Shown piece after piece: positions 11,165 through 59,202 of a stretch of 64,000 nucleotides of DNA. The translations under genes and the position numbers were made by a program. The stretch spans positions 62,001 through 126,000 of the forward strand of contig CAMZGO010000003.1 of assembly GCA_947306425.1 (NCBI GenBank), read 5' to 3'. The notes beneath the pieces are model-generated. The model saw nothing but the letters and a program-made list of their open reading frames with translations. It was not told the DNA's origin and did not search any database. Origin of the DNA: an uncultured Elusimicrobia bacterium. Lineage in GTDB: Bacteria > Elusimicrobiota > Elusimicrobia > Elusimicrobiales > Elusimicrobiaceae. The first letter of the stretch is position 1; the number at the start of each line of letters is the position of its first letter.

Positions 11165-11692
11165 ATGTTAAAAAATTATAGAAAAAATTATAAAGGTTTT
11201 ACTTTGATAGAACTTTTAGTAGTAGTTTTAATTATAGGCATACTTGCCGCTGTTGCCTTGCCGCAATATCAAATGATAGTCGGTAAAGCAAAATTTTCTA
11301 CTTTGAAAAATATTACAAAAAGTTTACAACAATCTGCTCAAAGATATTATTTAATCAATAGTGAATACCCTAAAACAATGGCTGGAATTGACATTGATTT
11401 AAGTATTAAAAAGGAAAAAACAACAAGTCATACTTTAGAAATAACAACAAGAGATAATATTATTTGTGACGTTTGGTGCAATCATCCGGAGACAGAAGGA
11501 TATGTCGCTTGTTATAGAAAAATTTTTGGTAAAAATACACATTATTATGTGCGTCGTGAAACAGGAAAACCTTTGTATTGTTTAGTTTCAGAAAGTCCAA
11601 GCCCAACACATCCTGCAAGCCGTTTATGTGCAAAAGAAACCAATAGACCAATAGCGTCAAGTTGTACTACTATATGTGAATATAATTACTAA
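11165..11692 (+). CDS. Type IV pilin-like protein (pilin 2)
   Basis: A 175-residue prepilin with cleavage after Gly in NYKG|FTLIELLVVV and the shared helix ending ALPQYQM. The globular domain is a clear paralogue of pilin 1: both have KAKF.TLKNITKSLQQS.QRYYL, ACYRKIFG-like and RLCAKETN motifs and the same length, but they diverge in the exposed middle part (IKKEKTTSHT... versus VKSESLTNYG...). This looks like an antigen-like pattern of conserved frame and variable loops. The Shine-Dalgarno GAGG precedes ATG 11165. It converges with recG, with one base between the two stops. Confidence 0.93.
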   Translation: MLKNYRKNYKGFTLIELLVVVLIIGILAAVALPQYQMIVGKAKFSTLKNITKSLQQSAQRYYLINSEYPKTMAGIDIDLSIKKEKTTSHTLEITTRDNIICDVWCNHPETEGYVACYRKIFGKNTHYYVRRETGKPLYCLVSESPSPTHPASRLCAKETNRPIASSCTTICEYNY

Positions 11693-48720: not shown

Positions 48721-49248
48721 TTATTGTTTTATCAGACATCCTTTATGGTTTGCAAAAACCTCATTTATGTCAGGTCCGCCATTGCATACTTTTTTACAAA
48801 TCTTTTCTTTAGTTGCTATAGTTAGTTTACTTCCGTTAAAGTAATCTCGGTCATAATAATAACAGTAAAAACTTTTCGCTGGTATTGTATCAAATTTTTC
48901 TAGTGAATATCCTAAACGTATGTCTGTATTTACATTTCTAGTCATGAAATTTCTTCGGCTTGTTAAATCAATTATAGTGTCTTTCATGTTTGGGATATTG
49001 ATATCAAAAATCTGTACGTTTTCAATACTAGTCGGTTGATTAAGGGTTACATATTTTTCATTGATTATGTAATAGCGTTCTTGTGCTTCAGCGAAATTTT
49101 TTACAATAGATAATTGTGATTTAACTTTTACTGCATTGATTAAATAATAGTATTGCGGCATAGCAATTGCAGCAAGTATACCGATAATTAAAACAACAAC
49201 TAATAATTCCAATAAAGTAAAACCTTTTGCACTACTTTTTATTTTCAT
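48721..49248 (-). CDS. Type IV pilin-like protein (pilin 5)
   Basis: A 175-residue prepilin: MKIKSSAKG|FTLLELLVVV with IIGILAAIAMPQYYY, then VKNFAEAQERYYIINEKYVT. The C-terminal half is different from the other pilins (FDINIPNMKDTIIDLTSRRN...) but still has the pattern FYCYYYDRDYF and C..VCNGG near the end. AGGAG precedes the ATG at 49246-49248. It is convergent with the TM-helix gene across a bidirectional terminator, and has its own T-tract promoter. Confidence 0.92.
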   Translation of the reverse strand: MKIKSSAKGFTLLELLVVVLIIGILAAIAMPQYYYLINAVKVKSQLSIVKNFAEAQERYYIINEKYVTLNQPTSIENVQIFDINIPNMKDTIIDLTSRRNFMTRNVNTDIRLGYSLEKFDTIPAKSFYCYYYDRDYFNGSKLTIATKEKICKKVCNGGPDINEVFANHKGCLIKQ

Positions 49249-58344: not shown

Positions 58345-58899
58345 TTAATTCAATTTGTAAACGGTAGAAAGATTATAACCGCTAACACCTTCCAATAATT
58401 CGCCACCTAATGCTTTACAAACTTTTTCGCCTTCTGTTCCGCTGGGTTCACAAGTCATCATTCCTGCTACATCAGGATAAAGATCATCATCAGGTTGGTA
58501 CATTAAAATATAAAAATCGTTGTCACTATCTAAACTGTGATAACAATATACATAACATGACGGTTCTTCACAAGCGAAACATGTCCAATAGTCATTTCCA
58601 CATTCGGGATTATCTCCACAATTACCATCATCCCAATCACTCGGCCATTTAACATTTAAATATGAAGCATTTGGGCAACCTATATCATTAGGGCAATAAT
58701 CACCATATCGTAATTTGAATTCTTGTAAAGCATCTTTCCAAGCACGCATAATTGGTAAAATACTCGCTACCTTTGCTTTCGTCACGGCCATTTGATATTG
58801 CGGCAGGGCAATAGCGGCAAGTATACCAATAATCAAAACGACTACCAGCAGTTCAAGTAAGGTAAAACCTAACTTGTGATTTTTATTGTTTTCTTTCAT
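58345..58899 (-). CDS. Type IV pilin-like protein (pilin 7), leader-controlled
   Basis: A 184-residue prepilin: MKENNKNHKLG|FTLLELLVVV, IIGILAAIALPQYQM, then a quite different, acidic globular domain rich in Asp, Tyr and Cys (GDYCPNDIGCPNASY, DGNCGDNPECGNDYWTCFAC). About twelve Cys could give several disulfides. It ends EGVSGYNLSTVYKLN. AAGGAGAA precedes the ATG at 58897-58899. Its upstream region contains no T tract but a highly structured leader with a terminator (58930-59082). Confidence 0.92.
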   Translation of the reverse strand: MKENNKNHKLGFTLLELLVVVLIIGILAAIALPQYQMAVTKAKVASILPIMRAWKDALQEFKLRYGDYCPNDIGCPNASYLNVKWPSDWDDGNCGDNPECGNDYWTCFACEEPSCYVYCYHSLDSDNDFYILMYQPDDDLYPDVAGMMTCEPSGTEGEKVCKALGGELLEGVSGYNLSTVYKLN

Positions 58900-58929: not shown

Positions 58930-59082
58930 AACAAAAACGGCTACTATACCCGGACCATAGTACCTAATCCAAACATAACAGCCGTGGTTTAACATAAAAA
59001 ATGTTAAACACTCGGCACGGAACTAGCGGTTTATAACTCCGCAAATTCCGTGCCTGCTACAGCTGTTTTTAGAGGTACTATG
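58930..59082 (-). ncRNA. Candidate riboswitch-like leader of pilin 7
   Basis: Minus-strand RNA. P1: 59073-59082 (CATAGTACCT) pairs perfectly with 58956-58965 (AGGTACTATG). P2: 59062-59067 with 58977-58982 (AACAGC/GCTGTT). P3: 59046-59054 with 59014-59022 (GGCACGGAA/TTCCGTGCC), with an inner GCGG/CCGC. P4: 58987-58995 with 59001-59009 (GTTTAACAT/ATGTTAAAC). Terminator: 58957-58964 (GGTACTAT) pairs with 58939-58947 (ATAGTAGCC, one bulge), followed by GTTTTTGTTT. The 3' strand of P1 is the 5' strand of the terminator, so the two folds exclude each other. A P1-stabilising ligand would turn the gene on. No known class recognised. Confidence 0.7.
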
Positions 59083-59189
59083 AACTTTTTTCAAAGTCAT
59101 CCTTATTCTGAAATAAGGTTCCAAAAACAGATTCAAATTTTTTTAAACCCTAATTTTCGGGGCTTACATTTTTTTAACCTCTCAAGCTT

Positions 59190-59195
59190 ATTATA
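59190..59195 (-). promoter_or_regulatory. -10 element of the pilin 7 leader
   Basis: TATAAT on the minus strand, in the gap just below the nucleosidase gene (stop at 59203). Transcription would begin near 59183 and give a leader of about 285 bases. An extra hairpin, CCTTATT-TCAG-AATAAGG (59101-59118), precedes P1. The -35 is unclear. Confidence 0.5.
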
Positions 59196-59202
59196 TCAAA
59201 AA

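Follow-up and report, generated by a model that had tools for sequence, protein, structure and literature searches.

A candidate transcription attenuator upstream of a type IV pilin gene points to an uncatalogued leader-RNA family in gut Elusimicrobiota

Introduction

The DNA analyzed here (the window, 64,000 nucleotides of an uncultured Elusimicrobia genome) encodes on its minus strand a type IV pilin of 184 amino acids (58345-58899), recognized by its ORF and GFTLLELLVVVLIIG prepilin motif and preceded by the SD motif AGGAG (58910-58906). What is the long structured leader in front of this gene, and what might it do? An initial annotation made from the letters alone described it as an undescribed riboswitch-like RNA with a multibranch fold. 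We consider the leader to be a cis-acting transcription attenuator that belongs to a new family of leader RNAs in gut Elusimicrobiota, and assign this reading a probability of about 0.87.

Architecture and covariation of the leader

All leader features lie on the minus strand. An extended -10 promoter (TGATATAAT, 59190-59198; hexamer TATAAT, 59195-59190) is predicted from the sequence directly upstream, and the pattern TGnTAnnnT occurs within 140 nt upstream of 40 of the 47 leader copies in the window's own genome, against 14.9 expected from shuffling. The 5′ segment (59144-59183) carries a purine box (GAGAGG, 59183-59178), an ATG-TAA (59169-59164) and an optional hairpin, H0 (59166-59160 with 59150-59144). 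Next come strand A (CTGTTTTTGG, 59121-59130) and two hairpins, HA (59101-59118; 59118-59112 with 59107-59101) and HB (59084-59097; 59097-59093 with 59088-59084); among the loops read, that of HB is a GAAA tetraloop in the window copy and GNRA-like in many copies. The 5′ strand of helix P1 (59073-59082) is followed by strand B (CTAAAAACAG, 59072-59063, within 59059-59072), the partner of A, which overlaps the P2 5′ strand (59067-59059), the partner of strand C. The P3 stem (59014-59054; 59054-59046 with 59022-59014 and 59042-59039 with 59029-59026) ends in a 9-nt loop, AGUUAUAAA (59038-59030), that contains the palindrome UUAUAA (59036-59031), and P4 (58986-59011) pairs 59009-59001 with 58995-58987, plus 59011 with 58986 across a bulged U. 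Strand C (58984-58968, within 58968-58985), assigned from B:C and C:D pair counts, overlaps the P2 3′ strand (58985-58977). The leader closes with the P1 3′ strand (58956-58965), strand D (58954-58938) and a run of five T (58937-58933).

The perfect 10-bp P1 noted in the initial annotation (59082-59073 with 58965-58956) is exact, and the multibranch fold is borne out by a minimum free energy of -87.3 kcal/mol (z = -7.0; of 200 dinucleotide shuffles, not one folded as well). That description is extended here by strand A, by the extended -10 promoter and by 46 further copies. Covariation in homologues, which the annotation had proposed as a check, is present in both predicted states. For the ON structure (P1, P2, P3 and P4), evaluated on 22 copies that MAFFT had aligned without structural information, two-sided change was found in 32 of 42 pairs, with 175 two-sided cells against 57 in shuffles; for the OFF structure (A:B, HA, HB, P3, P4, C:D and P1 as a pseudoknot), evaluated on a second alignment, it was found in 53 of 71 pairs, with 231 cells against 71. 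No shuffle of 500 matched the ON structure in any of five measures, and none of 500 matched the OFF structure, a significance that is overstated by the common ancestry of the aligned paralogues; this bias is countered by the slid controls and by the hits in other genomes. Sliding the partners by 1-3 columns reduced ON pairing from 90% to 37-45%, and the corresponding OFF controls fell from 90% to about 40%. Two-sided changes affect 6 of 7 pairs in HA, 5 of 5 in HB, 8 of 9 outer and 4 of 4 inner pairs in P3, and 8 of 10 in P4. P2-P3-P4 is the best conserved part of the leader, which is a conserved structured RNA domain backed by covariation.

Pairing specificity is most pronounced in P1, a perfect helix of 8-13 bp (G-U allowed) in all 24 leaders examined. 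At least 8 of the 10 modeled base pairs form in 109 of 114 copies, compared with 1% when partners are swapped, and the advantage is visible in the energies (-11.7 kcal/mol with the own partner, -1.6 with a swapped one); the 114 copies contain 98 different P1 5′ strands, which pair with their own 3′ strands. The C:D duplex likewise favors its own partner (-23.8 versus -17.9 kcal/mol). Because A and B are nearly constant between copies, own and swapped energies are inseparable for A:B and B:C, and the evidence for these helices consists of pair counts rather than duplex energies: 96.8% of A:B cells are paired in 22 copies, with compensatory changes, and A has a complementary partner in nearly all 114 copies. 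In four copies (L106, L117, L149 and L150), A and B are both replaced by a partly complementary pair, CUGGCUUAG with CUNANAAGGCCAA; this sub-class precedes GmrSD and McrB-like restriction genes.

Predicted terminator and antiterminator helices that exclude each other

The initial annotation had reused the P1 3′ strand as the 5′ strand of a terminator (58957-58964 with 58939-58947). That pairing reaches only -6.3 kcal/mol, versus -19.8 for C:D, and the P1 3′ strand instead sits inside the loop of the terminator hairpin. The exclusion itself survives this correction: terminator and antiterminator are mutually exclusive, and the strand they share is the 3′ strand of P2, not that of P1. Strand B can pair with A or C, and C with B or D; A:B, B:C and C:D thus compete for shared strands, and all three are retained in the copies. 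With UUUUU directly 3′ of D, C and D make up an intrinsic terminator. Its hairpin measures 17-20 bp and covaries across copies, GCCGTTTT is invariant in the 22 aligned copies, GCCGUUUU is conserved, and the GC-containing hairpin runs directly into the U-run, as expected of an intrinsic terminator. A pattern scan for terminators selected 58984-58938; it found 3, against 0.5 expected in shuffles.

Predicted energies of the two states in the window copy are close (ON -85.7, OFF -83.1 kcal/mol), and across 112 copies ON minus OFF has a median of +3.5 kcal/mol (middle half 0.5 to 6.1), although at energies near -80 kcal/mol the error is as large as the difference used. In the predicted fold of the growing transcript, A:B forms first, B:C after C emerges and P1 once its 3′ strand is available. 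The modeled leader has the layout of a regulated attenuator.

These elements suggest the following switch. Transcription would begin just upstream, at the extended -10 promoter, and strand A would pair first with B as an anti-antiterminator. As C and the P1 3′ strand emerge, P1 would zip and C would take B from A, so that B:C and P1 act as antiterminator in a P1-P2 column bearing the P3/P4 three-way junction. This state would leave D single-stranded, and RNA polymerase would read into the gene (ON). If A:B is retained, C would pair with D, and the 17-20-bp terminator would free a leader of about 250 nt (OFF). The helices, their covariation and exclusion, the near-equal energies and the position before genes are established by computation; the presence of both states in the cell, and the trigger, are our inference.

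One conceivable trigger is the ribosome, acting through the AUG-UAA start-stop (59169-59164) and the purine box. An ATG joined to a stop (ATG-TAR; TAA or TAG) follows the purine box in 19 of the 47 own-genome copies, and the purine box itself is present in 34. However, comparison of the copies showed that the start-stop is missing from many, both in the own genome and in others, so that there is no universal leader ORF and no conserved translated one was found; it also overlaps H0, which some copies lack. We consider ribosome-mediated attenuation highly unlikely and dropped the start-stop as a driver because it is not conserved. In the window and the other copies that carry it, the ATG-stop may be a start-stop mini-ORF or merely the foot of hairpin H0.

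Distribution and exchange of leader copies

When the window's own genome was searched at the DNA level, dozens of related stretches came up, most of them pointing at a gene start. A covariance model built from this genome alone (R1) finds 47 leader copies in its 1.44 Mb (E < 1e-5) and matches 79 of 90 genomes of the window's family (best E about 1e-30, covariance-model E-values being rough). R1 matches 90 of 341 Elusimicrobiota genomes, including a second family, and a broader model (R2) matches 92 of 341. All positive genomes fall in two gut families, the window's own and a distant second; within the former, copies occur in two of six genera, and the family search found between 1 and at least 33 copies per genome. 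R1 also finds the leader in Endomicrobium. A pattern scan of named genomes gave, among the matches listed, uncultured Elusimicrobiota, Elusimicrobiaceae, Candidatus Avelusimicrobium and Endomicrobium, together with one record labeled only "uncultured bacterium".

The initial annotation's view of the leader as undescribed held up. At gathering score, neither the window nor 16 homologous loci matched any Rfam family, including c-di-GMP-I/II, TPP, cobalamin, SAM and T-box, and raising the limit to E = 10 yielded only hits below threshold to unrelated small-RNA models. Literature searches, outside the 2017 Nucleic Acids Research motif catalogue (gkx699), turned up no account of an Elusimicrobiota leader RNA or pilin attenuator. 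The leader-RNA family thus appears, from these sequence comparisons, to have been previously uncatalogued.

Leaders and genes seem to have been reassorted. The genes at L070 and L132 are 98.8% identical under unrelated leaders, and L069 and L120 are near-identical from mid-leader through the gene and clearly diverged upstream. Together with L063 and L071, these pairs point to gene conversion or module swapping between leader-gene units, with breakpoints at or within the leader. Through such exchange of parts P1 can become mismatched, as appears to be the case in L120. Beside the window copy, an empty-site search in the nearest relative found the neighborhood rearranged. A GC-rich, MITE-like repeat (such as TATACTCCCCGCCCCTTTGC...GGCGGAGGGG) lies between terminator and gene at L010, L014, L018, L027 and L028 and also occurs elsewhere in the window, upstream of the pilin at 49224.

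Many dispersed copies, a patchy distribution and part exchange at or in the leader would also befit, in place of a regulatory RNA, a mobile element or a site of recombination in the DNA (an integron attC-like site, a MITE or the hairpin end of a transposon), and attC and REP-like repeats share with the leader many imperfect inverted repeats beside accessory genes. The leader differs from these in its promoter, its U-run and its orientation, position 5′ of genes and distance to start codons; G-U pairs of the RNA type are freely used on one strand, and the three exclusive helices are all kept. Viral contigs gave no match to two leader patterns. A mobile element or recombination site is very improbable, and we retain the attenuator reading.

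Genes that follow the leader

A pilin follows 82 of the 196 leaders and some other ORF follows 81; for the remaining 33, the next 330 nt hold no clear ORF. Start codons lie at a median distance of 42 nt downstream of the U-run. The non-pilin genes include those for family 2 and family 8 glycosyltransferases, LicD, outer-membrane barrels, TPR proteins, zinc-ribbon proteins and nucleases. Restriction or defense genes are represented by a type I R N-terminus, GmrSD, an McrB-like AAA protein, D12 and type III methylases, type IIG and a PLD-SNF2 helicase. To judge from these predicted products, pilins are the largest class, and the common denominator appears to be variable surface and defense genes. 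The suggestion that a pilus-related second messenger such as c-di-GMP is the ligand fares poorly here, as pilins account for only about half of the genes identified behind leaders. A pilus-specific signal is further opposed by the own genome, where 108 N_methyl pilin matches contrast with 24 leader-pilin pairs, leaving most pilins without a leader.

Leaderless pilins have another promoter type, TTGACA followed by 13-15 T and then CTAAAAT or CTACAAT, near the gene. Such promoters occur in the window at 11194+, 54481+, 5999+, 44770+ and 49224-, the last three being looser. The own genome contains 18 exact TTGACnnT12 sites (loci L275-L292), against none in a reversed control, and all 16 readable sites precede a pilin; these promoters resemble phase variation by slippage of a homopolymer spacer. 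The large pilin expansion is limited to some genomes of the genus, such as the window's own (G000) and G078, the latter with 114 N_methyl pilin matches; many other members of the genus have 12-39.

A self-complementary P3 loop and candidate triggers

Of 110 P3 loops, 78 contain a 6-nt palindrome, against 7.5 expected when each loop is shuffled, and 96 contain one of at least 4 nt (43 expected); P4 loops of the same RNAs serve as a control and contain a 6-nt palindrome in 0 of 114. At least five different 6-nt palindromes occur (UAAUUA, UUAUAA, UCAUGA, UUGCAA and UCUAGA), as well as the 4-nt GAUC and AGCU. Loop sequence changes wholesale between copies with self-complementarity kept, so that the apical loop is conserved as a palindrome, in the manner of DIS-like hairpins. 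Many P3 loops comprise nine bases arranged 2+6+1. The retroviral dimerization hairpin likewise has a nine-base loop with a central 6-nt palindrome in a 2+6+1 arrangement. Guanidine-II riboswitch loops belong to the same group of hairpin-tip elements, which have either such a loop or a GACG tetraloop. In another subfamily, P3 ends in a GACG tetraloop, a known homodimer kissing loop (PMC7357161). P3 departs from these examples in lying within a bacterial attenuator leader and in using several alternative palindromes across copies, and its dimer is a prediction. We rejected intramolecular pairing of the palindrome, since only 5 of 77 leaders contain it a second time.

The loop pattern suggests RNA dimerization: a kissing dimer would leave conserved self-complementarity rather than conserved sequence, as is seen. 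Leaders may dimerize through P3, and this may affect the switch. The self-complementary loop makes kissing, in a leader dimer or by a released leader on one still being transcribed, a candidate for the whole input or a share of it; a protein or small molecule could also serve. The signal is most likely read at P2-P3-P4, given that this part is the best conserved. Metabolite, leader-to-leader and protein readings are alternative triggers inside the attenuator explanation.

In the first of these, a small molecule would bind the P2-P3-P4 junction and stabilize the antiterminator as in a classical metabolite riboswitch, with the P3 loop as a tertiary or dimer contact. An aptamer-like conserved domain joined to terminator/antiterminator logic, in many copies within a single genome, fits this well enough to make it a tentative possibility, weighed against a chemically incoherent regulon (pilins, restriction-modification, glycosyltransferases, outer-membrane proteins and TPR proteins) and the lack of an Rfam relative. 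Few unpaired bases are invariant, and there is consequently no obvious ligand pocket.

An RNA-binding antiterminator or terminator protein that recognizes P3/P4 or HA/HB is a somewhat unlikely trigger; the hairpin-rich leader, its antiterminator logic and the often GNRA-like HB loop would accommodate one, whereas the P3 loop swaps sequence wholesale and keeps its self-complementarity. A direct leader-to-leader switch, in which P3 kissing dimerizes leaders and accumulated terminated ones feed back on growing transcripts that share their loop class, draws on the palindrome excess, the absence of palindromes from P4 and the variety of loops, GACG included. We nevertheless regard it as rather unlikely: most genomes with one detected leader retain the palindrome, so a cross-locus network is not required, and P3 is present in both predicted states, which leaves its coupling to the switch unexplained. 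That terminated leaders sense or silence nascent ones by palindromic P3 kissing, coordinating dozens of pilin, surface and defense genes in one cell without a metabolite, is more doubtful still.

Discussion

The attenuator proposed here looks, in layout, like a transcriptional riboswitch or attenuator. With transcriptional and orphan riboswitches (GEMM-I/II c-di-GMP, SAM and TPP), it would share a 5′ multihelix domain, the exclusion of antiterminator and terminator, and a terminator just before the gene; it differs in having no Rfam match, a private P1 in most copies, and a mixture of pilin, defense and surface genes downstream. T-box and leader-peptide attenuators similarly set terminator against antiterminator by exclusive pairing, but the leader has no T-box match and no conserved leader peptide, and the genes it precedes are not amino-acid genes.

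With 47 copies in a 1.4-Mb genome, the leaders would constitute one of the densest cis-regulatory RNA regulons known to us, in a phylum whose regulation is little known. If P3 dimerizes, this would be a rare instance of a leader RNA that controls bacterial transcription and associates with itself. The natural leader copies are a ready-made, testable mutational series, and the leader may help to explain how the choice among more than 100 pilins and a variable set of defense and surface genes is made in gut Elusimicrobiota.
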